Shown: positions 12,211 through 64,000 of the stretch, piece by piece | Numbering within the stretch: position 1 is the first letter of the stretch | Layout of the letters: each line of letters begins with the position of its first letter | Source: Tetracentron sinense | Lineage: Eukaryota > Streptophyta > Magnoliopsida > Trochodendrales > Trochodendraceae | DNA: 64,000 bases | Direction: 5' to 3' | NCBI GenBank assembly: GCA_015143295.1 | Contig: CM026557.1 | Coordinates: 41,921,965 to 41,985,964 of the forward strand | Position numbers and translations under genes: made by a program | Notes under the pieces: model-generated | The model's input: the letters and a program-made list of their open reading frames with translations, nothing else | What the model was told of the DNA's origin: nothing | The model's database searches: none

Positions 12211-15200
12211 TGTGACGCCCCGAACCCGCGCCTAGGAAACAAGTTCCGAGACACGTGCTCATTCGTCATAACCACGCATGCGGAAGACTTTACCCGCGAA
12301 AATGCGGGAATTTTTCAATTTTTCTTATGAGCTTACATAAGCAATAACAACTGGTCATCACAATAACCCATCATAAGCAAATACGTTACCTCACTGGCTA
12401 GAATAGCCTTTACTTTTGGCGCCACAACTGTGCCGGAACACTCTCCAAACTCTATCAAGCTATCCGCTTCAAAATCTGAAAACATCAAATGAGAGGAGTG
12501 AGCCATAAAGCCTAGCAAAATCCACAATCCATCTAGGCTATTTTCCACCTAGTAATACACATCAGAATGATATAATAATATCGCTCAATTTCCATATTAC
12601 AATAGTAAATAATATCATAAATCGTGACACGAGGTCACCCAGAGTTATTTCACTTTAGTCGAGGTTCTCAACCTCCAAATATTTTCCCTTGTCAAATTCA
12701 TCCAATATCAACTATATTCACAACACAAGGTTACCGATTCCAGATAACCGCTCACTCTCTATTCTTGCGTCCACAGATTCGATCGACTAGGCTTTCGTCC
12801 GCATACAACTTCTATCCCTGAGTTCACAGACTCAGCTATCAATCAATCGGGCTCATGCCCATTCAAATCATACCTTAAGTCTTTAGACTCAATACAAGAT
12901 CATACAACTATCTGACTCGGCCACAGTGAGAACCTTGTCCTCACGACATCTCTTTTGAATAGTACACCCATCACTTTCCCTGACCTAGTTAAAGAGGATC
13001 TATGAATATCAAATCCACCCACTTCCAACTATCAGTCACGGAGGACTAACATAACTCACCACTACAGACCCAGCCAAAGAGGATCTATGGATATCAAATC
13101 CACCCACTCCCGACTATCAATCACAGAGGATTACATAACTCACCACTCCAGACCTAGCCAAAGAGGATCTATGGATATCAAATCCACCCACTCCCGACTA
13201 TCAATCACAGAGGATTACATAACTCACCACTCCAGACCTAGCCAAAGAGGATCTATGGATATCAAATCCACCCACTCCTGACTATCAGTCACAGAGGATT
13301 ACATAACTCACCACTCCAGACCTAGCCAAAGAGGATCTATGGATAACACTCCACCCACTCCCGACGATCAGTCACGTACCTCGCCAAAGAGGATCCATGG
13401 ACATTATTCCACCCACTCCCGACGATCAGTCACGCACCTCGCCAAAGAGGATCTATGGATATTATTCCACCCACTCCCGACTATTAGTCACGGAGGACTA
13501 ACATAACTCACCACCCCAGACCTAGCCAAAGAGGATCTATGGATATCAAATCCACCCACTCCCGACTATCAGTCACAGAGGATTACATAACACCACCACT
13601 CCAGACCTAGCCAAAGAGGATCTATGGATAACACTCCACCCACTCCCGACGATCAGTCACGTACCTCGCCAAAGAGGATCCATGGACATTAGTCCACCCA
13701 CTCCCGACGATCAGTCACGCACCTCGCCAAAGAGGATCTATGGATATTATTCCACCCACTCCCGACTATCAGTCATGGAGGACTATACGACATCACCACT
13801 CCTGACGTAGTCAAAGAGGATCTATGGATAATAATCCACCAACTCCCGACTATCAGTCACGGAGGATTACACTTTAACCCTGGTTAGGTTTTCTAACCAC
13901 CGAGTAACCCCAGTTAATCCAAGCTTTGCTTGATTAACTGAAACAGTTGGGTCCCACGCCCGTGAACCAAATCCAGTAACACACCGTCCCGTTAGGGAAC
14001 ATTTTCAGGCTAATGGATGTGTTCATAGCCTTATACGACTTGCAAAATAACTTTTCGACACCCCAGGGTGACGATACAATTTACCCGGGACCTGATCTGG
14101 GCTCCCGAAGGTCCACAGAAAATCAAAACATCACATAGGGGTTTCTGACCCTTTTTCCATCCACGCCTTTTACACAGTGAGTCTAAATCCGGGGTTTTGA
14201 GACCCGAGACCGAGGGCTACACCCCTCTACTCATTTTTCACGCACAACCACCTTCCCATAACACTTCCACGGGGTCTCGTACCGTTTTCCATCAACGTAC
14301 ATACATTCCACATAAATAATATAGCAAATAATAGGAAAAATAGAAGAGATGGAAGAGGTTTTTTTACCTCTTTCACGCACTTCGAGACGTCTATGGCCGA
14401 AACGGACACCGCCAACGCGCTCGGGAGGATGATCAACCCCAAGGTAGAACGCATGCAACTCTCTCTCCACTTTCTCTCTCTACCTTTTTCTCTCTCTCTC
14501 TACACGCCAAACGAGACGCCAGGAAAAGAAACGGGCGTCACCAGCGCGTCGGGAACGTCGAAAAACCCCAAGGTGATCTCCCTTTTCCTTTCTCTCTCTT
14601 CCTTTCTCTCTCCTCTTTCTCTCTCTTCCTTTCTCTCTCCTCACTTTCTCTCTCTAAACATGTATGTGGCTCTGTCTGCACAACCGTGAGAATGAAGGGG
14701 CTGGTCCTCTTTTTATAAGCCTTATAAGGGTTTAGATCATGTGCAAAAGCACATGACCATTTGGTGTGGCAAAAAGTGAGGTTGACCAAGTCAACCGGTT
14801 TGACTGGATTTTCACACTTTTCACGTATATATCATTTGAAATCCTACGATATAATACCCGATAATGACGAAACTTTAGGTGACCGAACTTGGGACAGTCC
14901 GACACCCGCTGTAAAATTTTGGGGAAGAAATACTGAGTTTTGATAGCTGCACTTTAGTCTGGAAGAAAACTGTAAAACCCACTAACTTCCTGATTTTGGA
15001 CACAAAATACGCTGTCGCTTCTTCGTTTGAGATAACTAACTGCCGAGACGACAAACATTAGTCCCCACGGCCGACTGACACGCATTAGTGCCGACCGCAC
15101 GGATTTCTATTAGGATCTCCAACAGATATTGGGTCCCACTTAATTTCTGGAAATATGGAAATTTCCCGTTTTTCTCAATTTTATCACACATAATGGCCCC

Positions 15201-49009: not shown

Positions 49010-50243
49010 CTAACGGCGATTGAACTCTTGAGTTGAATCGCAATCACAAATCCTCTTTGACCGCCCTTTTGTTAAGAAGTTTTAACCGTGAATAATTTTT
49101 TGAATATGTTTTTCTAAAAACTAAGATTAGAAGGGTTAGAAAATCCTAACCATAGTTAAAAGGAGTTAAAAGGGACAGATGTTGACTAGTGGGTGCGATT
49201 GAACTCTCCCAAATTCAATTGCGATCAAGGTATTAAACTTCGGTTTCGGCATAAACTTCGGTCGCTAAGGAAGTTAACACGTTTCGAAGAAAGTTTAAAT
49301 CCAAAGAAGTTATGTAAAAATTAAAGAAGTCTAGGAAACTTTTTTTAAAAAACATTAAAAATCTAAGATGAAACTTTAGAGATTCAATACCTAAGCATAA
49401 ATACATATCTAGAATTCATTATATTACTTATGCAAGCATGTAGTACTTAATGTGAGAATCATGTTAAATGACATGCATTGTCTGCTTATTTAAGCTATAA
49501 TTTCATCTTGACATTCCTCTATATTTTCAATAAAAATTTACTATATTTGAACTTCTTTGTCAAGTGAAGGGAATATGTAACGCCCTTTTATTCTCTTTAT
49601 TTTACAATGTTTATCCATGTTAATTGTTTTAGAAACCTGAAAAACTTATGAATGCAAATTAAAGTTGATAAACAATTAAAATTCGATTTAGTTTCTAAAC
49701 CTATTTCAATATACAATTTATGAGTTTAATGTTTTTATTGAATCAATATGTGAAGTGGATATAGGTAGTTAAATAATTTTAATTATAAAATACTATTGGA
49801 AAATTATTTAATTTTGTAATATTACTAAACAGCACTTATGGACATAATATACTAATAATAAAATTATTAGAATTATAATATTATAATTTATAATAAGGTT
49901 AATGCTAGCAACACTCTCTTTTAAAGCTAATTATATTTATAATATAGTTAATGCTAGTGACAAATGTCTTTCCTTATGAAAAAAAATAAGCTTAATGCGA
50001 GTGGAACTTGTATTACCCTTTTAAGTTAAAACTTAGAAAATCCTTCAATTTACAGAATTTTTCTATACACTTCAGTTAACTTCTACCGAAGTACTGTATT
50101 TTCTCAATAATTTTTTTTCTATTTCGATCGAAGTTTACCATTAAGTCGAGTATTTTTAAATACAAGTGCATTTTGCTTCAGACACCATGGAAGTTGACCC
50201 AATTCGTCCAAAGTTGACCGAATTGAGTCGATTTTTGACACCA
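49010..50243. mobile_element. M1-family MITE interrupted by a 1-kb TIR element
   Basis: 49010-49228 is an M1-type inverted repeat (GGCGATTGAACTC ... GCGATTGAACTCTCCC). From 49229 (GGTATTAAACTTCGGTTTC) to about 50243 (CGATTTTTGACACC) is an AT-rich element with weak inverted ends. Its right end recurs at 52440-52535 (GACCGAAGTTGACCGAAATG). No coding capacity. Confidence 0.5.
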
Positions 50244-50485
50244 CGACCACAATTGAATATGATCATTGATAACTATTCGTTAGTTAAGAGGGTTAGAAGC
50301 CTAGTGCTAGACGTTGGGCCAGATGATGGATATCTCAACTGCTAAAGGGAGTTGAACACTGATCACCCGAATGTGGAACACACACAATGCCACTAGCACA
50401 AGCAAACGAGTATACTCCCTAACTGTTATTAACGGATTTCAAAAGGATAACTTCCTTTTCCTCAACTCCCAAAACTTGAAAGTCT

Positions 50486-50939
50486 ATGGTAACCAATAGT
50501 TACCAGAGTGAGAAGCGAAAACGAGAAGCAAAGCGAAAGCGAGAAGCAGGAAGCGAGACTCAAAAAAATCTTAGGAAACGGGAAGCGATAAATGAGATAT
50601 AGGCTCCTCATTCCCATTATATTATTTATGGGTAGTTATTCATTTGATTTTATCTTACATGAGATTTTTGTAGAAAAGTTGGTACCTTAGGTTTCAAACC
50701 GACGATACTTGCTTAGAGTCTACACCCTAGGCTATAGATTGTGGTCTACCACATCACTTCACACATACAACTTTCTTTGACTATTAGATGAGACGTGATG
50801 GAAGCGAGCTTCCTAGGAAGAGAGTTTGTTCGAGAAAACGAGCTTCCTAGGAAGCGAGTTTGTCCGAGGAAGCAAGTTTGGGAAACGAGCTTCCTGAGAA
50901 GCGAGCTTCCCACCTTGTACATAGCTTCCCGGCAACTAT
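50486..50939. mobile_element. ATAGTT-type MITE, copy B
   Basis: It starts ATAGTTACCAGAGTGAGAAGC and ends AGCTTCCCGGCAACTAT. Internally it has several GAGCTTCCTAGGAAGCGAG palindromic repeats that are expanded relative to copy A (4643-5005). A partial related segment is at 51060-51180. Confidence 0.65.
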
Positions 50940-51225
50940 ATAACCAACAACAGCAAAGTTCCATGGCAAGTCAAACTAATTCTCACCAGAATTCAGCTCT
51001 CTAATATACAAACACATCTCCAATTTCTGCACCATACGCTATAAGTTCAGATATATCCCATAATGTCCCACATATAACTCTCTTTGACCACTACATGAGA
51101 CTTGATAGAAGTAAGTCTGGGAAACGAATTTCCTGAGAAGCAAGCACTCGCCCTATACATGGCTTTCGTGCATCTATGGTTGGGTGTGATCTGTAATGGA
51201 TACAATCAAAACTCTCTCGTTAGGT

Positions 51226-52153
51226 ATTATACTATATACTATAGAAATAAGAGTGGTTATGTGAAACCCCTAAATGATCTCCATTTTCATTATATCGTGA
51301 CAAAAGTCATCACCTCTCACACAATGGGACCCACCACTTATCATTTTTCTTTCTCGATCCAAGCACATATTAAATATCATCTCCCACTCTTTCTTGAATT
51401 TGTCTCTCCCAATGAGTCTTTTCTTCTCCTTAAATTATTTTGTGTCAAGTCATCATCTCTATCACAATGGGACCCACGACCTATCACTTTTCTATCTATA
51501 TTCAGTCACATATTAAATACTCTATCTCACTCAAATTTGTCTCTCTCAAAGTCTTTTCTTCTCACATTTGACGATTTATGTTTATCAAAACTTTGTAGCC
51601 AAACACAGGAAGTTTGCCAACCCCCCCCCCCCCCCCCCCTTCTTTCATTAGTTACTTAAAAAATGTAGGCACCAAAAGGAAGGTAATTTCTAAATTTGTT
51701 TTGAATGCTATATAGTGTTCTCTCCTCTTTAAAGATTGTAGCAAGTAATTTACAAATGAAAAAAGGCAAATACCCTATGTTTGGCTACAAAACTATGATA
51801 AACACAAATCCTCAAACGTGAAAAAAAAAGACTCATTGGAGGGGGGGGGAGAGAGAGATGATTATTTTTAATATGCGATTGGAATAAAATAGAAAAGTGA
51901 TAGGTAGTGGGTCTCATTGTGAGAGGTGATGACTTGACAATATAAATTCTAAAGAGAAGAAAAGACTCCTTGAGAGAGACAACTGAGAGAGATAGAGACA
52001 TGATATTTGGATATTTAAAATGTGATTGGATAGAGAAAGAAAAGTGATAAGTGGTTGGTCTCATTGTGAAAGAGATGATGACTTGGCACAATATAATGAA
52101 AAATGAGATCATTTAGGGGTGCAACATAGGCACTCTTATTTCCATAGTATATA
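51226..52153. mobile_element. Large foldback element, 0.93 kb
   Basis: The left arm (ACTATATACTATAGAAATAAG, GTCATCACCTCTCACACAATG) is mirrored by the right arm (CATTGTGAGAGGTGATGAC, CTTATTTCCATAGTATATAG) over about 400 bp. Each arm carries its own internal direct repeat (TCTCACACAATGGGACCCAC-type, twice). A C17 tract lies in the left arm (51621-51638) and a G tract in the right (51841-51849). The frames at 51102-51659 and 51750-52112 are artefacts of the arms. Confidence 0.75.
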
Positions 52154-52549
52154 GTTTGTTTCTCTCCCTAAACCCTCCCATCTCTCTCTCTCTCCCCTTT
52201 TCTTTCTATATATCTCACAACATTATTCCTTCTGTATTTTGTAGCCAACGCATCTGCTTCTGCACGCTAGGGTTTCCTAAGAAGCTTCAGAATGAGAAAA
52301 GGAGGAACGATTTCACCGAAGTTCAGTGACTTCAATGAAATTCCTCATGATGTTCAGAATTTTTCAATTACACTACCATTTTCAGTCGACATTTACCAAA
52401 GTCGAATGACATTCACCAAAGTGCGTAAGGAAATCTTGTACTTTTTAAAATACATGGGGGTTTCGCTTCGGACACCACCGAAGTCGAATCATTTCGACCG
52501 AAGTTGACCGAAATGAGTCAATTTTTTACACCTTAGAGCTAATTGATCC
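52154..52549. other. Element fragment and flank
   Basis: Most of 52290-52535 is related to the 3' part of the element at 49229-50243 (CACCGAAGTTCAGTG, AAAGTCGAATGACATTCACC-like blocks). The frame at 52292-52507 is not a gene. Confidence 0.4.
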
Positions 52550-53023
52550 ATGGTTTAAAAAAAGGCCGAAAAAGTTACGTAACGCTTTCGGTGAATGTCA
52601 TTACCCGCTACCGTGTCGCTACGCTTTTTATCCATACAGGCACCGTAATGCCCGAATCCGTTATGTAACAGGAGTTACGCCCGTTACGTAACGGTAACAG
52701 GCGAAGGACTCGTTCGCAGAAATCCAATTCGAGTTTTTTTAACTAAAAAATATCATTTTTTCATTAAAAATATCATTTTCGACTGGGGGCTACACCCCCT
52801 TGCCACCCCTCGGGGCAATTTGCTAAAGGTAAAATGATATTTTTAGTGAAAAAAACTCTTTAGAATCTTGTTACTTCTTCCTTACATATATTTTTTTTTT
52901 CCTATTTATTGTGATTTTTTGGATTTTTTTTAAGCAAAAAAAAAAGTCGTAACGGCCGAAACCGTTACGTAACGGTTTCAGCCGTGTCCGTTACGGTGTC
53001 CAAAACCTTTCTTTTGAACCTTA
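52550..53023. mobile_element. MULE-like MITE with CGTTACGTAACGG motifs
   Basis: A 9-bp duplication AATTGATCC at 52541-52549 and 53024-53032 flanks ends ATGGTTTAAAAAAAGG and CCTTTCTTTTGAACC, which are imperfect inverted repeats. The palindrome CCGTTACGTAACGG appears near both ends. The 9-bp duplication suggests Mutator-like transposition. Confidence 0.65.
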
Positions 53024-53089
53024 AATTGATCCGTTCTTATTTTAAAAAGCATATTTGTTGTGTTTCCTCCATATACTAGGGTGTCCAAT

Positions 53090-53524
53090 TTAGGCCTGGC
53101 GCAATTAAATAGTTAGGCGATCATGGGATGGAGTCTTGGTCTCAATTCCATTATAGTATACTTCTAACCGGGCTTGACCCGACTCGACAAGACCCGTTTA
53201 CCAAAATGGCCTTATTTTTACACTATTTCTTAGGTGGACTTGGCCCAACCCCATCCTGGCCCGAACCTGATTAATAAATTAGTTGGGCTGGCCTATTTAC
53301 AAATCAAATTTAGACAGGTTCGAGCTGGGCCAGGCTTGGACCAAGCCCACTTGAGGAATCCATAGTGAAAAATGTTTTTTTGGGGGTTTTTAAATAAACA
53401 GACCTTTTTGGGCCGAGCCAAGCCCGGTTAGAAGTATACTAGAAAGGGTCTTGGGCCTAAGACTCTAATCTTAAGTCTCAATTATTTAATCGAGCCAGCC
53501 AGGCCCATTCACACCCCTACTCTT
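53090..53524. mobile_element. hAT-like MITE, GGGTGTxAATGGGCC type
   Basis: The left end GGGTGTCCAATTTAGGCCTGG and the right end CAGGCCCATTCACACCC are inverted. Internal GGGCTTGACCCGACTCG and GCCGAGCCAAGCCCGG blocks also pair. No coding capacity. Confidence 0.6.
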
Positions 53525-55264
53525 AAGTCTTAACCCACAACAAGAGCTTAAAAGACTGCCCATATGTTGCCCAACTCTCGTATCAAAGATGAGATTTCAC
53601 CTACCCCTCCTTAAGACCTATAATTTAATCTCCCCTTAATTTTGGGGAAAACACATCTAACCTTTTTTTAAAAATACCTAACCATTTCTTGGGGTGAGTT
53701 CCATCCTTCACTATTGAGATAAATGGACTTCTCTTCACATACATACATAGAGGCTCCCTCTCACCCTCTCTCTCCACGGGTATTCTCATTGGTGATTATG
53801 CAACACCACTTGTACAGTCAGGAATCTAGTTTAGGTGCAGATGGGACAATCACAATGCCCTAAAGCCATATTTAACTCCAAGTAATGGATCACGGGAAAA
53901 AGCACCCATTACACACCTCCTTGAGCAAATAAAAATTTTCAAAGGCCTCAAATGCCTGATATCCTTTGCAAAATCCAAACCACCATTTTCTTTAAACCAA
54001 GTCAGTCGAACAATCTTAAAGTAGTAATTTTTTCCCATACTATGTTTGCTAGCAATAGGCAAGTAATACCAAATAAACCATTCTATAAGTAACTAAGACG
54101 CCCTTTAGCATCACTCGTGGAGAGCAAAAATGCATTTGACAAGAGTTGGGACTCAGGACCGGAATGATTTTAAGAATCATCATGATTTTAGCATAAAATT
54201 TTTAGAACAAAAGAAGTTGACTAATGAGAAAATCAATTCTGATAAACAATTTTTTTTGCATGAGTCTCAACACTACTTCTCCAACTCTCTATCATTCTCT
54301 CTCACAACTACCACCATCAACACCCCTGCAAGCATCACACCTACCTCATCCCCACCCATCAAAATGTGATTTATGGTGTTCTCATAATTAGTTTTGTCTG
54401 ACTTTCCAAACAAATTATCTGCACAAAATTGATTATGAGAATCCAACCCATTATGTAACAATTTTGACAATTCTCTATACTTGACATGAATGGGACGAGA
54501 ACTGAAAGTTGGAAAAGTAACGTCGAGACTCGTACAAAAAAATTGTTTTGAGAATTGGTTTTCAAACGTAACTTTCTTCATTCCCAAATGTCTATGCTAG
54601 AATCAAGATGATTCCTATAATCATTCCTATCTCAAGCCCTACCAAATGTGTTTCTACGATTTTGTTCCTTAGGAATAGAAATCCCATGAGTGATGCCAAA
54701 ACGGCCCCGATCATTTTCAAGATTTTAGTACGACCTTGCTTTACTCATATTTCAAGTGCTACTCTAAAGCAACAATTGTATCCAAATCTCAGTTGTATGG
54801 CATTTGAAAATTATCTTCATATGCAAGTATGCAACTGACATACTTGTCCCACACATCAATCGATTGAGAGAAAAGAAATTTTTTTTTTACTTGGTCAAAA
54901 TACCCACAGCAGATGCATGGATGCCATAGTAATCCGCAAAATCCATCCAATCACCCTAAATTTTACTTATTTTATGAATCTATGACAGCTTCTCAAGTAT
55001 CATACCAAGTAGTTAAACAATAACAAGAATCTTGCAAAAACCTTGCATGCACTTTTGCATCCCTTTAGGCTGAGCAAAACCACTTCACTTACTATTTAGC
55101 ACAATGCGCAATCAAATGCCCCTTGTTGGTAACTATCTACAACATTTCTCTTTTATTTCTATCTCAACTTTCTTATATGATCTATAGACATGGACAAGAG
55201 TGTTGCATGTCAACATAAATCCAGTCTCTCTCTCTCTATGTGTGTGTGTGTGTGTGTGTGTCTG
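53525..55264. other. Intergenic; possible LINE debris
   Basis: The minus strand at 54062-53850 contains WFKENGGLDFAKDIRHL, reminiscent of a LINE segment after the reverse transcriptase, but too short to be sure. A (TG)n microsatellite occupies 55238-55262. Otherwise nothing recognised. Confidence 0.35.
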
Positions 55265-55492
55265 TGTAGCGTAGACAAAATATCACTTAGGCAACACTTA
55301 GGTCACTGCCTTGCCTAGCCAAGACTCTAATCTCCTACAAATGATGCAAGCGGGCACTCATAAATTTTTTATAAATTTCAAAACAAAGGTAGTTTTGGTT
55401 GCCTAAGCATCGCCAACACTAAAGCAATGCCTTGCCTAAGGAAACTCCAATGCCTAGGCGAGTAGGCGTTGCCTAGACGCTTTGACCATACT
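55265..55492. mobile_element. GCCTAGGCG-type MITE, copy 3
   Basis: The ends GTGTAGCGTAGACAAAATATC and GACGCTTTGACCATAC are inverted repeats. It has the same internal order as 43251-43436, with TAGTTTTGGTTGCCTAAGC. Confidence 0.65.
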
Positions 55493-55513
55493 TGAATTAT
55501 ATATGTATATATC

Positions 55514-55800
55514 AGTGTTTTAAAAGGCGTGAGGCTTATGCCACAATGATCACGTCGAATCGAGGTTAAAGGAAAACATTTTTGAGGCTTAAATTACATG
55601 AGGCTAATGCCTCAAACCATGAGAATAGCTTTATGTCTGAGGCATGTGCCTTATACATTAATCAAAAATAGGGTTCTAACAACATAATTGAGACTTGAAC
55701 ATCAAATATTTTTCCAAGTGAGCCTCATACATTAATTAAAAAAAATTGGGTTCTAGCTTAAACATTAAATTATAAGGTGTGTGCCTCATAATTGTTTTTA
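55514..55800. mobile_element. AGTGTTTTAAAA hAT-like family member (partial)
   Basis: CAGTGTTTTAAAAGGCGTGAG, then GAGGCATGTGCCTTATACATT and AAAAATAGGGTTCTAACAAC, parallel the left part of 4344-5211 (CAGTGTTTTTGAAAGGC ... ACTAACCAAAAATAGG). The right end is not found. Confidence 0.55.
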
Positions 55801-56192
55801 TTAATAAAATCATTAAAAAATTCTTTTTCTTTTCTTTTTTGTTATTAGTCTAAATCAAAACTTAATTTATTATGTGTAATGTAATTAGGCTTTTTAAAAC
55901 CTTGTTGAGTATATTTTACTGGAATTTTAATAGTAGACTTTGCAAAGATCTGGAGTCATTGTCTAACATATATAGTTGGTGACTACTTTGCAATTTTTTG
56001 TTGGAATCCAAAATCAACCATATAATGATTGAACATTATCGGTCTTTTAATATGTATATCCACGAAAAAAGTAAATCTAAATTTTAACTTTTTTTGCCTC
56101 TTAATTTTTTTATGACTGAATAGTTTATATTGTATATAGTATTACGTATGTGTGTGCATACAAAAACATAAATATATATAGAGAGAGAGAGA
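55801..56192. other. Intergenic, no feature recognised
   Basis: AT-rich, ending in AT and GA microsatellites (56170-56195). Confidence 0.4.
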
Positions 56193-57250
56193 GAGTCAGG
56201 GTACTCCCTGTTTTTTACTCCTTATCTAAGTCATCTTTTAAAGAAAATTAATGGCTTTAAACATCACTAAGGTGACATCCTTTTATAAAAATAAATATTT
56301 CCAAAATTTTCCTCTTCTTGTAAAAAAAAATCCACATGATCAAACCTCATTCTCGTTCTCTCTCTCACATTCTCATCTCTCTCCTAAACGTCATTCCCCT
56401 CCTGCTTATTCTCACACTTCACAACTGTATTCGAGATCGAGAAATGATAGAAAGCTTAATGAATCAGCCTTGTTGGGAATCATAGTTGGTGGTTGTTTTC
56501 TAGGGTTTGTGGCATTTGCTTTTCTGCGGATTGTTTGATGCTAGAGAAGAAAAGCTCAAGAAGAGTTCTCTGGAAAGTCACATACAAAGAGAGGGGGAAG
56601 ATTATTAGTGGAAGCAGGAACAAGCATGAATGCAAAGGATTTAAAACATCCGAAGTTTGGTTTTGGGGGCCAAACACTAGACTAAGGGAAGATGAATTCT
56701 TCAAAGACATGTTTGCAGACAGAGATGAAACATCTATTCGGTTTTAGGAGCCAAATTCTTGACATGAACAACAAGCAATGTAAGAGAGCAAAGAAGGCAT
56801 ATGGCTAAGACTATTGGAAATCAGGAAGAAAAGAAGAAGAATAGCAGAGAAGCAAAGTGAAAATCAAGAAGAATGAGAGCAACATATTCAAAGAAGAGCT
56901 ACCAAGGCCAAAACCCTAGCAACTCCAATTCTACTGATCAAAACAGAGCCTTAGAGGAAAAGAAAGGAAATCTGCGCCGAGAAAAACCAAAAGCTGGATT
57001 CAAAGAAAGGAAAGGGGAAGATGGAGATGCCATTGCAGGGAAGAAGAAAGCCGAAGAGGAGATGGTTTACAGGATTTGAGTCGTTCACCATTAACAAGAG
57101 GAATTTTTTTAAGGGGGGCGTTTTTGGAATTATTAATTTTTATAAAAGACACCACCATAGCGATACTTAAAGCCATTGATTTTTTTTTTTAAGAGTGGCT
57201 TTGATAAGGAGTAAAAATAGGGAGTAAGAAAAGACAGTACCCCTAGACTG
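56193..57250. mobile_element. TIR element carrying a receptor-kinase gene fragment (Pack-type)
   Basis: The ends, about 90 bp, are inverted: GGGTACTCCCTG...TTTTTACTCCTTATC...AATGGCTTTAA on the left, and TTAAAGCCATTGATTT...GATAAGGAGTAAAAA...AGTACCCC on the right. The interior has no transposase but encodes a host-like peptide (see 56440-56540). The flanks are AT/GA microsatellites, so no duplication can be read. Confidence 0.6.
56440..56540 (+). pseudogene. Captured LRR receptor-kinase transmembrane fragment
   Basis: RKLNESALLGIIVGGCFLGF followed by VAFAFLRIV and a stop closely resembles the juxtamembrane and transmembrane segment of plant LRR-III receptor-like kinases (At5g58300 and At4g23740 type), where S-A-L-L-G-I-I-V-G-G-C is typical. 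No kinase domain follows. Identification is from memory of the family. Confidence 0.5.
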
Positions 57251-57395
57251 ACTCATATATATATATATATAGGATAGATACTTATGCTACCTTCGAAAGA
57301 AATGATCCATCCCTTACCACTAGTCCGATATACCAGGTCTACTATAACAACCTCATGGTGATTCTTCCACATGCTAATCAAGAAAACAAATTTGG

Positions 57396-57827
57396 TTGTT
57401 TGAAAATAGATTTACAACTGGCATTGAATCTGAATCTCCAGATGATCTCTTTGGCTTTCCTAAATGCATCCAAGAAGCTTGCTCTATTGTTCGCTCTAGC
57501 TCTTATCACCAATACCTTTATCTTGAGGTAATCAGCTCTTGTCCTCAATGGGACCATGAAAGTTATATTTGTCATCCTTCAATGCACATTATCCTTATCC
57601 ATCATTTTGATTCGGACGATAATCCTCCTGCTCATATTCGAACCAAATCCTTCTATACAGTAGAGGAACTTCAACGCAGAAAGGTGAATGGATTAATTCG
57701 TATTCAAACATTATTACAAAACTCTCATCATTGGCGCATTCTCACCCAAACCAAAAGAATACTCGTCTTCTTTAAGGATAAAAATATTTCTCTTCGCTGG
57801 CATCTTTTGTACTCTGATATAATGTAA
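57396..57827 (+). pseudogene. Viral C-terminal or accessory ORF remnant of unknown function
   Basis: A 143-codon open frame without a domain I can name. The same protein, diverged, is encoded in the inverse arm on the minus strand (around 62303-62064), which supports that it was once coding. In-frame continuity is lost upstream of 57396. Probably the region after RNase H or a separate ORF of the virus; this is inference. Confidence 0.5.
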
Positions 57828-58129
57828 GACACAATCAATGGCTCTTCTGAAGTCTGTGATGCTCTTTATCATGTTTACCAGAATATTAACAATCCTCTCA
57901 GACCACTTGGTTACTTCAATCAGACACATCGCAAAGAATATAAATATCTCGATGATTCTGATCATGATAATGACCCTGATATGGACTTCTTAATTCCTGA
58001 CCCACCTGATGTTGCTATAGTGGATCCAGCTTCTGCTCCATGACCCGAATTTTCTATCCCAAAGCTCCTAAGAAGATTGTTGATTGTTCAAAATCTTCAA
58101 AAATATCAAGATAACTCTCATGTCACGCA

Positions 58130-58250
58130 CTGCTACAGTAACGCTACAGTGACTTTTGCTACAGTGACAATCTACAGTTGATGTGAATAGTATGTGAACA
58201 GTAGACCCGTGAGTCTACAGTAGTTGACTTGTAAACTCTATAAATAAAAC
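58130..58250 (+). promoter_or_regulatory. Putative viral promoter with CTACAGT repeats and TATA box
   Basis: CTACAGT occurs five times (58133, 58144, 58159, 58172 and 58214) just upstream of a strong TATA box CTATAAATA at 58238-58246. The motif spacing and position suggest promoter elements. The inverse arm keeps several of them but has a changed TATA box near 61620. Confidence 0.55.
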
Positions 58251-58505
58251 ATTTCTCTTTGAGTTGAGGCATAACCGGGATAGTGTCCTGACCTTTTTAC
58301 TTGTTCTAGTGTGCTTTTTAGTTTGCTTGTGTGGTTCTCTAGCTTGGCTTCTTAAAGCTTCTGTACATCTTCTTTTTCAAGTTTGTTCAAAGGCTTCGGC
58401 CTCAGTCCTCAATCTGTAAGTATCTTTTCTATGTATTAAAATTTGATTGCTTAGCTTGTTTGTTTTAACTTTTGTTTTAGCTTATCTCTCAATCTCCCCT
58501 ATAAT

Positions 58506-58519
58506 GGTATCAGAGCCTG
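58506..58519 (+). promoter_or_regulatory. Initiator tRNA-Met primer-binding motif
   Basis: TGGTATCAGAGCC is complementary to the 3' end of the plant initiator tRNA-Met, the primer used by caulimoviruses and many LTR retroelements. The same motif, inverted, starts the right arm at 61343-61356, so the viral arms break precisely here. Confidence 0.8.
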
Positions 58520-59279
58520 TTCTTAACACTGTAATGGCTCCTTGTTCGCAGAACATGATCGCTTAAATTAAGATCTTATCCCTGGATCTATTACCTTAGA
58601 TGGTTTTGTTATCTTACTGAGCATGGATCTTTGTTGGCTTATATTTCTTAACTAAGTACATTATTTTAATTTTTCAGATTAGTATAAAGCATAATCCCCC
58701 TGATCAGTATGCTCTGACTGCCACTTTGCATGGATCTCTCACATCAGAAAACAGGAGGCTAACTATCTGGCAGAAAACTAAAAACTTAAATTAACATTAA
58801 ATACGGACCATCTCATAGCTTATGGGATTAGCATGAACATGTCTAATCAGTACGCACTGGGGAACGCTTAGACCCTTCGAGGCCAGGAGAGTGCCGTTAT
58901 GTGGTCAAGAGCATGCGGTGTATGATTTTGAGTTTCACTGCCACGTTTGTCAAAAACTATTATTGACTACTTTAGAAATACTAGGCAACACCAGCTTTGC
59001 TCACTAGATAACACTGTTTATCAACGGTTAATAGCTAAGGGGATAGACTCTTAAATATTCATGGAATCTGCTCGACTTTCAACTTTATCTACTTCTAGTT
59101 TATCTAATTCACCTTCTTTCCGCACTTCTACTTCTTCTAAATTAGATTATTTATATGAAATCGAGTATCAATCTGAAGATGTTCGAGTTCCTCCTACATC
59201 TTATCCTATAGTTAATCTTTATAGTATTTATGATCGTATTTCTAAAAATAGTAACAAAATCCATAAAAAAAAATTTAGT

Positions 59280-59830
59280 TGGTCTTAATACTACTAAGTC
59301 CGTTAAGGAATATGTTCAAGCTTCTAAGTTTGACCAATTCCAAATCCTTGCCTCAGATCAAGAATCCTTCTATACTCTCTCTCTCTACCAAGAGAGCTTA
59401 TTATACCTTGGATTCAAGAAGGATACACCCATTTACACTTTGGTGCTGTAAAATTGGCCTTAACTTTTCATGGAAGAAAAGATCTCCTTGATGTCTCTAG
59501 GATAGCCCTGTTAAACTCAAAGTTTAGAGAATACCAACATGCCTCAATAGGAACAGTTCAAACAACACTCAACTCAAGCACAGTATTCATTACCCTTTTC
59601 CAAATTTTCAATATGCCTCTACGAGTCCTCATCTCATAGACGCTCTTAAGGTCCAAGTACAAATTAATGGTGCTCCTTTGATCTCAACCACATATGCAGC
59701 CACCCTTCATTATTAAATGGCTTATCGCCTTCAAAATCATGCATTTGAAGGTGTTTCTACAAATTAATGGTTCCAGACTTTGATCGCACTGAAAATGCAC
59801 TTATGATCAAAGTTGATGCTGGCAAAGTAC
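59280..59830 (+). pseudogene. Pararetroviral movement-protein (30K superfamily) remnant
   Basis: Segments in changing frames resemble the plant-virus 30K movement-protein core as found in Caulimoviridae: a basic and hydrophobic entry segment, then YQHASIGTVQTTLNSSTVF, then an ALKVQVQING-like segment. Movement proteins widen plasmodesmata so that virus can pass between cells. Here at least two frame changes (near 59400 and 59590) and an in-frame stop near 59715 make it non-functional. Confidence 0.6.
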
Positions 59831-60059
59831 CCTAATGTACTTATGTCCCTCGCCAACTTAGTTTGATTGAACTTACCACTCTCTTACTAAATTGATTACT
59901 CACTATGAGTCAATTCATAATGAAAACAAGACAATTTAGTCTGACAATCCCATCTTCATCAGACACTCTGATGGTACTGTAGAAACACAAATCCCATTAA
60001 ACACATCTTGTGATACCCCATCTGTTTTCACTACTGCTCTACCAGCTACATCTACGCAA

Positions 60060-61348
60060 ATGCTGCTCAATCCAGAAGAAACTTCTCCACTTACAAAAGT
60101 GTCTAAATCCTTTAATATCCCTTGTGATATTTGCTCATGTGAGGATTGCCTTAATTATGATTTTGACGATGATTATGATATCATTCTCATTAAACCTGGT
60201 ATTAGGAAGAAAACATCTCAACAGCTTCTTCAAGAACGATATGAAGCAAGAGATCCCGAAGTTGGCCTTCTTGGCCATCCATCTGGCAAGTTTGACTATT
60301 ATGTCCTTTACTCTAGATCTAAACCATCAGATTTACCTAATAAACCACCAAATCTACCAAGTAAACTATTATCATTACCTCCGCCAGTTACTACCCAACT
60401 ACCAATATCTAATCCAGTAACCAACCCAGTTAAGTTTTCAAACCCAGTTCGTAAACCATCACCTTACACACCTACTCCACAGTATGAACCTAAAGACCTT
60501 GTAATTGGTGCTTCCTCCTCCGAACCTCCATTATCACTTCTCATAGAAAAGGAACAGTCAAATCCAATATCTTCCTTTCTTAAGAACTTAACTAAACCAG
60601 TCGACTTAGAATTATTTCATGTTTCTCTTACAGATACTGAAAGTAATTCTAATTCTACCACCAAAACTCAGTCAGATAATGACACTACTCCATCTGATAT
60701 TGTCCCTCTTACCTTTATGATGGACACTCCCGATATTGATGATCCTCATATTGAAGACCTGAACCTCCTGAGATCCCTCCTCATCTTAGGATACCTCACC
60801 CCGATGCTAAAAGATTCTTCACTATCGATGACATCCCTCCATCAAAATAGCGTGAACGTCTTTTTGAAATATTTACTTGGTGTACTACTGAATACCAAAT
60901 CCCTGGTACTATTGTTAGTATGGTAATTCAAAAAAATTTTACTCGACTCAATGGACGACTTCGTGAATGGTATAATAGTCTTGCTGAATATAGACAAATG
61001 CAACCCAATCAACTTCCTACCCTTGACGCTGTTCTATCCACAATCCATCAAGAATTCATAGGTTCTCATCTTCATCACACAGAGAAATGTCATGATGAAT
61101 TTCTTAAAATGAAATGTTGCTCTTATCAAAGATCAAATTTAGAAAAGCATTATGATCGAATGTCTAGACGCTTCTATGTCCTCAATGGCATGGATGATGT
61201 TAATCTCAAGCAAGCTTTCCTATCATCATTACCAAAACCCCTTGGTGATGACACAACTAGGCTTATGAATACAAAACGTATAACGCTCCAACAAACTTCT
61301 CTCGGTGAAATTTTTCAGTTTAATCTGCAAACTCTTGAAACGCTCTGA
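60060..61348 (+). pseudogene. Pararetroviral capsid-protein remnant
   Basis: The first part (60060 to about 60765) has a C-x2-C-x-C-x2-C cluster and then an acidic, proline-rich linker, typical of the N-terminal capsid region. The later part (60920-61348) has an LREWYNSLAEYRQMQ-like and KCCSYQRSNLEKHYDRMS-like capsid core. A frame change near 60765 and an in-frame stop near 60849 separate them. The frame stops at the arm junction before any zinc knuckle, protease or polymerase. Confidence 0.65.
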
Positions 61349-62617
61349 TACCATTATAGGGGAGAAGAGAGATAAGCTAAAACAAGAGTTAAAACAAATA
61401 AGTTAAGCAAGCCTTAATACATAGAAAAAATACTTACCGACTGAGGACTGAGGCCGAAGCCTTTGAACAAATTTGAAAAAGAAGAAGATGTACAGAAGCT
61501 TTAAGAAATCAAACTAGAGAAGCACACAAGCAAACTAAAGAGACTAAAGAGCACACTAGAACAAGCAAAGATGTCGGGACACTATCCCGATTATGCCTCA
61601 ACTCAAAGAGAAATGTTTTATTTATAAAGTTTACAAGCCAACTACTATAGACTCACGGGTCTACTATTCACACACTATTCACATCAACTGTAGATTGTCA
61701 CTGTTCATATCACTGTAGCAAAAGTCACTGAAGCGTTACTGTAGCGGTGCGTGACATGAAAGTTATCTTGATATTTTTGAAGATTTTGAACAATCTATAA
61801 TCTTCTTAGAAGCTTTAGGATAGAAATATCAGGTCATGGAGCAGCAACTGGATCCACCATAGAATCATCAAGTGGGTCAAGAATTAAGAGGTTTATATCA
61901 AGGTCATTATCATGATCAAAGAGATCAGAGTCATCGAGATATTTCCATTCTTTGCGATATATCTGATTGAAGTAACCAAGTGGTCTGAGAGGATTGTTAA
62001 TTTTATGGTGAACATGATAAAGAGCACCACGGACTTCAGAAGAGTCATTGATTGTGTCTTACATTATATCAGAGTACAAAGGATGTCAGCTAAGAGAAAT
62101 ATTTTTATCCTTAGAGAAGACGAGTATTCTTTTGGTTTGGGTGAGAATGCGCCAATGACGAGGGTTATGTAAGAATGTTTGAATACGATTAATCCATTCA
62201 CCTTTCTGCATTGAAGTTCCTTCACTATATAGAAGGATTTGGTTCGAATATGGGCAGGAGGATTATCATCCGGATCAAAATGATGAATAAAGATAATGTG
62301 CATTGAAAGATGACAAATATAACTTTCGTGATCCCATTCAGGACAAGAGCTGATTACCTCAAGATAAAGGTATTGGTGATAAGAGCTAGAGCGAACAATA
62401 TAGCAAGCTTCTTGGATGCATTAAGGAAAGCCAAAGAGATCATCTGGAGATTCATATTCAATGCCAGTTGTAAAACCATTTTCAAACAACCAAATTTTAT
62501 TTTCTTGATTAGCATGTGGAGGTATAACTATGAGGTTATTATAGTAGACCAGGTATATCGGACCAGTGGTAAGGGATGGATCATTTCTTTCGAAGGCAGC
62601 ATAAGTATCTATCCATT
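61343..62617 (-). repeat. Right inverted arm of the pararetrovirus insertion
   Basis: It reads, on the minus strand, the same order as the left arm: coding remnant (62303-62064), promoter region (61620-61760), leader and primer-binding motif. It ends near GCATAAGTATCTATCC, the inverse of the left arm's start. The plus-strand frames at 61912-62172 and 62310-62717 are shadows. Confidence 0.85.
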
Positions 62618-62648
62618 TTCGTTCATCAGAAAGAGTAAATCGATGAAT

Positions 62649-62697
62649 TTTCGCTTAGATGTCACAATGAAGGTCATTGTGACATCCAAGCGAAATT
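62649..62697. repeat. Near-perfect 22-bp stem hairpin
   Basis: TTTCGCTTAGATGTCACAATG is followed by a 4- to 5-base loop and its inverse CATTGTGACATCCAAGCGAAA, with a single mismatch. It lies about 30 bp outside the viral right arm. It could be a terminator-like fold, a very short MITE or transposon excision remains; the sequence does not decide. Confidence 0.75.
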
Positions 62698-63171
62698 TTT
62701 TCATTATTAAAATATAATTTTGAAAAAATATATAATTTTTAATATTCTTTCATTAGACGTCACGTTACTCCCTTTATATTAAATAATTTTTTAATAAAAT
62801 ATTATATAAATATAAATATAATTGAGTAATTAAATTTAATATTTCTTATATTAATTTAAATTTAATATTAGAAAAATTATTTATCTTTTCATGGTTGCTC
62901 CCTGGGTGCCAATCCAGAATTTCTACAGTCCTTCCCATAAGGGTCGATCAATTAGGGTGTGGAGAGTCCTAAACCAACTCTGTTTTAATAATGGGTCTCA
63001 AATAATATTAAATAGTGACTTAATTAAAGTTTGGTTATATTATAAGTTATGTATTAAATAAATTCACTTGGGTATTTACGTCAAAGTAAAGTTTTTCATA
63101 CTCCTTGTACTTTTATTAGTAGAATGATATAGATACATATATATATATAGAAACACATACCTTGCTTTCTA
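62698..63171. other. Intergenic, no feature recognised
   Basis: Very AT-rich up to about 62880, then mixed sequence to the LINE start. No coding exon seen. Confidence 0.4.
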
Positions 63172-64000
63172 GAGGGCATTTCAAGGTTAGACTTCAAGGA
63201 GGAGCAAACCTTGCTTTCTGTTTGCGAGAGTAAGGAAAGAGATGCTTTGAGGCAGGAGTTTCAACTGTTTTTAAAACGGGAGGAAATTAGTTAGAAACAA
63301 AAGTCGAGAGCTAGATGGCTCAAAGAGGGTGATAATAATACGAGATTTTTTATTTGTATGGCTTCTGTGCGCCGTAGAGCAAACAAGATTGTCAGCCTTC
63401 AGATAGGGGCCCAGGTTTGGAATACGGATAAAGAGATGGGGGTGGCAGTAGCGGAGTACTATGGTTCGTTATACGAAGAGAAGTTTGTCAGTAGGCCTTT
63501 GCTTGATGGTTTGGATTTTGCGAGTATTTCTGAGGAGATGAGCAGTCTGATGGAACGGCCATTCTCAGAATTACAAGTGCAATCGGTTATCTCAGATATG
63601 GTAGGGGACAAAGCCCCTGGGCCAGATGGTTTTTCGATTGAATTCTATAAGCTATGTTGGCCGGTTATTGGGCCGGATTTAATGAAGGTCTTCCACGAGT
63701 TCTTCCAATCTAATTCGTTTGATCAAGTGCTCAATTGCTCTTTCATAGCTCTAATCCCTAAGGTGTCGGGGGCTCTTGACATTCGAGATTATCGTCCTAT
63801 CAGCCTTCTTGGTAGCGCATATAAAATTCTATCAAAGGTGTTGACGGCTAGATTGAGTTGGGTGATTGGGCTGGTGATTTCCCCGGACGGAGCACCTTTG
63901 TGGGAGGTAGGCAAATTGTGGATGGGGTCCTTATTGCAAATGAAATGGTGGATGAGCGTCTGAAGCAGGGAGTCCTAGGTATAATTTGCAAGATTGATAT
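63172..64000 (+). pseudogene. L1-type LINE, reverse-transcriptase N-terminal part, frameshifted, runs off the window
   Basis: The frame WLKEGDNNTRFFICMASVRR leads into the reverse transcriptase with KAPGPDGFSIEFYK near 63612-63653, IALIPK near 63750 and DIRDYRPISLLGSAYKI near 63780-63825, the standard order for plant L1 reverse transcriptases. After about 63890 the expected FVGGRQI block is in a different frame, so a single-base change breaks the copy. The catalytic Y-x-D-D lies beyond the window. An in-frame stop near 63290 lies upstream of the coding start chosen here. Confidence 0.85.

Follow-up and report, generated by a model that had tools for sequence, protein, structure and literature searches.

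A mirror-image endogenous caulimovirid in Tetracentron sinense with its inner seam at the virus's own replication nick

The window, a 64,000-nucleotide stretch of contig CM026557.1 from the genome of Tetracentron sinense, harbours near its right end a decayed endogenous caulimovirid arranged as a mirror image, in which two inverted arms flank a truncated core. The features of the insert and its immediate host flanks, in window coordinates, are as follows:

57255..57271, no strand: (TA)n tract where host DNA meets virus on the left, from sequence
57272..58504, plus strand: left arm, made up of the ORF2 C-terminus (as far as 58043, in a broken frame), the intergenic promoter and the leader
58239..58246, plus strand: TATAAATA, which we take to be the TATA-box-like element of the left-arm viral promoter
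58505..58516, plus strand: primer-binding site (PBS) TGGTATCAGAGC, presumably matching the initiator Met tRNA, read through in the left arm
58517..59939, plus strand: core part 1, decayed, with homologous copies, presumed movement protein by gene order
59940..61341, plus strand: core part 2, decayed, presumed capsid by gene order, cut before the protease
61342..61347, no strand: inner joint, a 6-nt microhomology (GCTCTG) between capsid sequence and PBS complement
61342..62677, minus strand: right arm, inverted, with 12 nt of PBS, leader, promoter and ORF2
61619..61626, minus strand: presumed TATA-box-like element of the right-arm promoter, from sequence, pointing inward
62646..62698, no strand: palindrome of the viral end and its snap-back copy of about 20 nt, followed by microhomology (AATT) with the host repeat
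62694..63149, plus strand: high-copy host repeat, from genome matches, at whose edge the virus inserted

Comparison of the arms with blastn (57272-58516, plus strand, against 61342-62677, minus strand) gave 89.68% identity over 1279 columns, with 92 mismatches and 8 gap openings, and a self-comparison of 54000-64000 by ungapped pieces recovered the same pair. The two inverted 1.25-kb copies reported in the initial annotation are therefore real, except that the outer limit of the right arm lies at about 62677, and not at 62617, some 62 nt further outward than that of the left arm. Homology between the arms stops on both sides at TGGTATCAGAGC, located at 58505-58516 in the left arm and, as its complement, at 61342-61353 in the right arm. 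Priming by Met-tRNA is described in PMC7660458. The right arm does end exactly at the PBS, as had been claimed for both; the left arm is not broken there and runs on into the core, such that the PBS break belongs to the right arm only. In the phylogenetic tree the two arms were sister sequences (support 0.986), indicating that their source was one molecule or near-identical molecules, and they differed at 104 of 1215 sites. The left outer edge at 57272 is not a viral terminus, since other copies carry virus further upstream, and the outer ends were rejected as a second break hot spot because other copies run through both.

The truncated movement-capsid core previously described between the arms is indeed cut in the capsid region, and it has a further internal loss near 60360, where a stretch of several hundred bp, at most about 950, that is present in other copies is missing at approximately 60354-60362; the gene labels themselves are putative and follow gene order. 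Pfam searches of the viral pieces in the window returned nothing above cut-off, the few matches (E 0.03-0.08) all being to unrelated families, and the movement protein domain PF01107, named in PMC4241990, was not found in the short, decayed frame pieces searched separately. Protease, reverse transcriptase (RT) and RNase H were matched in related copies only, and not in the window virus, with RVT_1 scoring above the Pfam cut-off (5.9e-26) and protease and RNase H below theirs. For the RT piece from one of the related copies, the best solved chain was 8r0s_A, ‘Enzymatic polyprotein’ (7.5e-41), versus 1.1e-27 for 7q5b_A (named Ty3-G). Nothing useful was retrieved by a homologous-protein search with the ORF2 piece, by viral-contig searches with the capsid, movement and ORF2 pieces, by Rfam at the gathering threshold or by a solved-structure search with the protease-bearing piece of locus L025.

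Across the copies, the gene order was read as CP-AP-RT-RH-intergenic region-MP, plus an ORF2-like frame. At 11 loci, comprising 12 copies besides this one, the ORF2 type carried by the arms was preceded by a protease and no more than a stub of RT, which points to an RT-less viral form, and RT-bearing copies matched the window from about 58061 onwards, the intergenic region being common to both forms. The loss of polymerase sequence that had been proposed for this insert is consequently not needed, as its arms carry the ORF2 type of the RT-less form. The insert is a copy of the RT-less form of an endogenous caulimovirid that is present many times in the genome and is probably florendovirus-like. 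Like the florendoviruses (PMC4241990), these viruses are multi-copy, have what reads as the MP-CP-AP-RT-RH plus ORF2 order and occur as fragmented insertions flanked by (TA)n; like their RT-less component B with its ORF2 homologue, the form described here is missing RT, carries an ORF2 homologue after AP and shares its intergenic region with an RT-bearing form. It differs in keeping a stub of about 95-157 residues before the RT domain.

At the inner joint, virus is joined to virus without intervening host DNA, 12 nt of the PBS are kept, and the capsid sequence shares GCTCTG (6 nt) with the complement of the PBS; at least six shared bases were seen in 0.16% of simulated joints. A second, unlinked locus (L080) has the same PBS/capsid joint with a different leader type. 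That L080 is a duplicate of the window locus was rejected, there being no match to window positions 50000-57250 or 62701-64000, and was also ruled out by its capsid piece, which is not sister to that of the window. A candidate third locus (C10, L081) was likewise rejected, its capsid-side sequence being directly joined to the leader at about 58483 and not to the PBS.

The right outer end carries a templated snap-back insert of about 20 nt, within the palindrome at 62646-62698, followed by AATT microhomology to the host repeat, so that GCTCTG, AATT and the templated palindrome, all traits of microhomology end joining, are present in the one insert. The host repeat at 62694-63149 had at least 110 matches among the matches listed, 40 of 1717 candidates being scored. 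Sequence read upstream of 13 other copies of this repeat suggests the pre-insertion state at the window locus, and the site so reconstructed from paralogous repeats would be consistent with one insertion accompanied by the loss of about 30 bp.

Breakpoints of this virus concentrate at the PBS in the T. sinense genome, a hot spot that is hit repeatedly in unlinked copies. Of the leader breaks lying no more than 60 nt from the PBS, 18 of 20 were at -3 to +15, a count that includes two by-eye corrections (p 4.6e-13); with the ambiguous L017 omitted and both sides of one joint taken as a single break, the figure was 16 of 18 (p 1.5e-11). Since loci were found via the intergenic region, breaks near it are over-represented, and the short query is less able to recover copies that are cut far up the leader. 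In a second scan of 42 places, 16 were broken at -3 to +16, one was broken elsewhere in the leader and 25 were read through (window left arm included), most of the latter also carrying TGGTATCAGAGC. Breaks at the PBS often fell exactly after CTATAA, the point at which minus-strand DNA begins, and one locus has a perfect head-to-head joint of CTATAA to TTATAG. The ICTV text places the discontinuities where priming occurs and describes a short displacement of the strand there. Another nine 3' breaks were found elsewhere in 57272-58460, including a cluster of four at 58387-58418 that the PBS model leaves unexplained. Among the loci read, there is a segment that begins 4 nt before the PBS and another that begins about 17 nt beyond it.

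Virus-virus joints at PBS ends were inverted in 9 to 11 of 18 cases according to which of three rules was used, L079 and L045 being classable either way; this ratio of inverted to direct near 1:1 is predicted by the joining of loose ends. The initial annotation had proposed recombination of two opposite molecules broken at the minus-strand discontinuity, and the repeated breakage of this site and the frequency of inverted joints bear this out in part, although the insert has one PBS break and not two, and the joint at that break lies within the PBS and uses microhomology. We consider it probable (about three in four) that viral ends at the minus-strand discontinuity were captured by microhomology end joining during repair of a host break. 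Viral DNA would have served as filler in the repair of a double-strand break at the (TA)n margin of the host repeat; the first piece, beginning in ORF2, would have extended across the intergenic region as far as the capsid gene. Another molecule, nearly identical to the first, would have ended at the minus-strand discontinuity, its plus-strand 3' end lying 12 nt into the PBS (...TGGTATCAGAGC); this end may have paired through its CAGAGC with the GCTCTG of the capsid sequence and been joined there, yielding the inverted arm, after which this second molecule would have folded back on itself at its opposite end, been extended by about 20 nt and been joined at AATT to the host. We infer a polymerase-theta-like enzyme, a 3' overhang, a single event and this order of steps.

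An inverted recombinant virus molecule could instead have existed before capture, made in reverse transcription when the plus-strand 3' end, fresh from copying the tRNA primer end, mis-annealed to plus-sense GCTCTG and was extended. Such a route is favoured by the +12 joints of the window, L009 and L080, whose inverted orientation is clear and which employ GCTC, GCTCT or GCTCTG, by a fourth +12 joint (L079) that begins with 14 inverted bases, and by the occurrence of one and the same joint at two loci that are unlinked and differ in leader type. Nonetheless, the orientation bias of the +12 class was not significant (Fisher p 0.09, 0.12 or 0.58 by rule), the longer partner of L079 is direct virus and the snap-back at the right outer joint is of the repair type, and we regard this origin as unlikely. 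The more general suggestion, that copying of the tRNA primer by the plus-strand 3' end is a recurrent strand-transfer hazard, with CAGAGC mis-annealing at fixed viral GCTCTG sites so that specific inverted recombinants are repeatedly formed in replication and then captured, is put forward tentatively, and we hold it to be doubtful.

Multi-copy clusters elsewhere, such as C5, lend something to the view that the arms came about through two independent insertions or a post-integration inversion, but this is quite improbable given the virus-to-virus inner joint, the common stem of the arms in the tree and flanks that fit a single site with about 30 bp lost. That the structure is an artefact of assembly is highly improbable, as the arms differ at the 104 sites noted above, the window lies inside a 47.5-Mb contig and joints of the same kind occur at many other loci. 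The initiator Met tRNA also primes many LTR elements, yet the insert can scarcely be an LTR retrotransposon rather than a pararetrovirus: no direct repeats of at least 40 bases were found in 54000-64000, the leader ends in TATAA and not CA, and the RT piece of the related copy is closer to 8r0s_A than to Ty3-G.

The insert has parallels in several published systems. A head-to-head caulimovirid of upland cotton (PMC10458927) likewise comprises two inverted copies at a locus delimited by Met-tRNA PBSs, though those copies are nearly full-length and 98.98% identical, whereas the copies described here are partial, the inner joint is at the PBS and the insertion is older. Endogenous RTBV-like sequences of rice (PMC526188) similarly have AT-repeat flanks, and their ends cluster in the intergenic region and at putative sites of discontinuity; they represent another genus, and neither a base-level joint nor a snap-back is described in the text as far as it was accessible. 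Hepatitis B virus, an unrelated virus of an unrelated host, also integrates reverse-transcription DNA with preferred ends (DR1), and non-homologous and microhomology end joining are among the models proposed in PMC8398950. The cotton and rice reports show that this kind of structure is already known; the present analysis contributes the base-level resolution of the joints.

The mechanism by which caulimovirid DNA is captured was called speculative in a 2023 review (PMC10377300). Recurrent breaks at the virus's own replication nick point to how such viruses get into plant chromosomes, and the finding that breaks in many copies lie only a few bases from where the minus strand begins, and that joints show microhomology and a snap-back, makes the question testable in the form of viral-end counts in any plant genome. 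According to the same review, inverted endogenous caulimovirids are reported to yield 22-nt siRNAs; the insert in the window has two predicted promoter-like regions that face inward.

The insert at 57272-62677 of the window, on contig C7 of an assembly of 1.16 Gb in 1479 contigs, consists of a core between two inverted arms:

57272-58516, forward strand: left arm
58505-58516, forward strand: initiator Met tRNA primer-binding site (PBS) of the left arm
61342-62677, reverse strand: right arm
61342-61353, reverse strand: PBS of the right arm, read as its complement

The arms were 89.7% identical across 1279 columns, which bears out the two inverted copies described in the initial annotation. The 1215 aligned bases held 75 transitions and 29 transversions (K2P 0.092); with an assumed 2.5e-9 to 1e-8 substitutions per site and year, and with the arms taken as identical at the start, this divergence would give an age of about 5 to 18 My. 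The same annotation had both arms ending at the PBS, and the homology of both does end there, at TGGTATCAGAGC, but the left arm itself reads on into downstream virus.

The reverse transcriptase (RT) piece of a related copy matched RVT_1 (5.9e-26), and its best solved chain was 8r0s_A, 'Enzymatic polyprotein' (7.5e-41), which we take to be cauliflower mosaic virus RT, followed by 4ol8_A (1.6e-28), presumably Ty3, and 7q5b_A, named Ty3-G (1.1e-27). This piece had 894 protein relatives, and all organism-named ones among the 120 listed were plant proteins; the window's own virus pieces gave no Pfam match at cut-off. In one viral form, CP-AP-RT-RH and a further domain precede the intergenic region, and the window's match to this form begins only at about 58061. 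In the other, AP is followed by a stub, about 95-157 residues long and ending near the RT domain start, and then by ORF2; this form was seen at 11 loci in 12 copies (two in L009 and one each in L010, L012, L017 and its paralogue L018, L021, L022, L023, L025, L027 and L028), and the ORF2 of the window arms is of this type. Both forms occur in a cluster of rearranged copies with arms in both orientations at C5:1855001-1885000 (L009-L011), where the ORF2 of L010 is interrupted by roughly 2.5 kb. As far as the available text of each source goes, the AP-stub-ORF2 form is similar to component B of bipartite florendoviruses, which lacks RT (PMC4241990), and to non-autonomous grass pararetroviruses (PMC5491270).

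A genome scan with 58400-58520 as query (46 candidates, 40 scored) returned at least 42 places, all classed by eye. Among the 42 listed, 25 continued past the PBS into the viral sequence downstream (the window left arm among them), 16 stopped at -3 to +16 of the PBS (the window right arm among them), and one ended upstream of that zone; several of the 25 are similar and on small contigs, so that their independence is uncertain. The break thus belongs to the right arm, and the left arm is an ordinary copy.

Breakage at this site was also frequent in loci chosen by their match to 57700-58500, in which the 3' end of every leader copy was classed (39 rows). Merging or exclusion removed five of them: a repeat entry for the L013 copy, the L016 copy also present in L015, L018, L054 (paralogue of L053) and L051, in which the PBS is deleted yet the sequence reads on. 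The L013 paralogue L014 was never entered. Of the 34 rows kept, 14 read through and 20 had a break no more than 60 nt from the PBS; the positions of two of these breaks (L010 at 8800, and L049) were corrected by eye. Eighteen of the 20 breaks fell at -3 to +15, the exceptions being L020 (-36) and L049 (about -5), with a binomial p of 4.6e-13 if breaks are independent; without the ambiguous L017, and with the two sides of one L019 joint counted once, the figures were 16 of 18 and, under the same proviso, 1.5e-11. Counting against a hot spot, chained matches in 10-kb loci gave nine other 3' ends within 57272-58460, although L020 enters both tallies and one L010 case is an interruption, not a true end. 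Four of the nine lie at 58387-58418 (L012 4685, L013 4711, L015 2944 and L021 5177); these breaks coincide with a splice-donor-like CTGTAAGTAT or fall upstream of it. L013 and L014, separated by about 670 kb on C13, are near-identical in insert structure and may represent a segmental duplication.

These loci, the scan with 58400-58520 and the window together yielded 24 PBS-end joints, compiled by hand.

Partners of the 24 PBS-end joints
Inverted virus (10): window, L009, L013, L019, L025, L026, L028, L064, L079, L080
Direct virus (8): L010, L016 (two), L019, L045, L052, L072, L080
(TA)n (2): L050, L065
DNA of no identified kind (4): L023, L024, L046, L067

Some of these assignments depend on short pieces: 40 bases in L025, 30 bases and then a long inverted arm in L009, 14 inverted bases and then direct pieces in L079, and about 17 inverted bases and then direct RT in L045. 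Inverted against direct partners stood at 11 to 7 by first neighbour and 9 to 9 by first blast-size match. At L019 5600 a perfect head-to-head junction, CTATAA/TTATAG, links two viral ends, and at L064 127 the PBS end abuts inverted protease-region sequence.

Relative to the PBS, 16 joints lay at about -2 to +2, three at about +3 to +6 (L023, L028, L045) and four at +12 (window, L009, L080, L079); the L067 joint reached up to +16. The accessible ICTV text places discontinuities at priming sites, produced by short strand displacement; minus strands should accordingly start at 0, and the tRNA-complementary stretch should end at about +12. Joints at +12 tended to inverted partners (4/4 or 3/4), non-significantly (Fisher p 0.09, 0.12 or 0.58). 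In the portions available of the published accounts, rice ERTBV ends cluster at putative discontinuities as well as in the intergenic region (PMC526188, which attributes an open-circular model to Jakowitsch et al.), a cotton head-to-head locus is bounded by PBS motifs (PMC10458927), and (TA)n bias is considered along with end joining (PMC4241990, PMC8256270, PMC10377300); no base-level count of PBS ends was found among the listed papers and passages, which were mainly open-access main text.

At the inner joint, the capsid sequence, which in other copies runs on as GAAACGCTCTGTAATCAG, shares GCTCTG (61342-61347) with the PBS complement, GCTCTGATACCA; six or more shared bases arose in 0.16% of simulated joints of the same sequence. 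A search with 61280-61420 (62 candidates, 40 scored) gave at least 44 places, and two of those listed, namely the window and C5:33461774 (L080), cross the joint. L080 matched neither window 50000-57250 nor 62701-64000, its leader piece is short and, by eye, of a type unlike the window's, and its capsid piece is not sister to the window's. Derivation of both joints from one recombinant molecule integrated twice is less likely, though the near-star radiation of the copies leaves room for it.

At the outer ends, virus extends upstream of 57272 in other copies, and the right arm tracks their viral sequence as far as about 62677, beyond which come some 20 bases reverse-complementary to the viral end and then a host repeat. 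The right outer joint has the microhomology AATT; a snap-back insert with microhomology is a signature of polymerase-theta end joining. The repeat had at least 110 matches listed (40 of 1717 candidates scored), and in 13 of 13 other copies examined a stretch like TAGTAAAAGTGCACGTGCCTTGCACGTAT, much shortened in L033 and diverged in L031, precedes a shared AATTTTTT upstream of it; by eye, at least four TA units stand immediately before this stretch in six of the 13. The window has (TA)n at the left side and lacks the TAGTAAAAGTGCACGTGCCTTGCACGTAT-like stretch, an arrangement that fits a single insertion with about 30 bp lost at the repeat edge. A LINE-like RT frame adjoins the insert at 63358-63960 (RVT_1 E 0.037, below cut-off). 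Elsewhere in the window, a tandem array at 12982-13871 has units of 58, 84-85 and 285 bases, with a Tandem Repeats Finder score of up to 1238.
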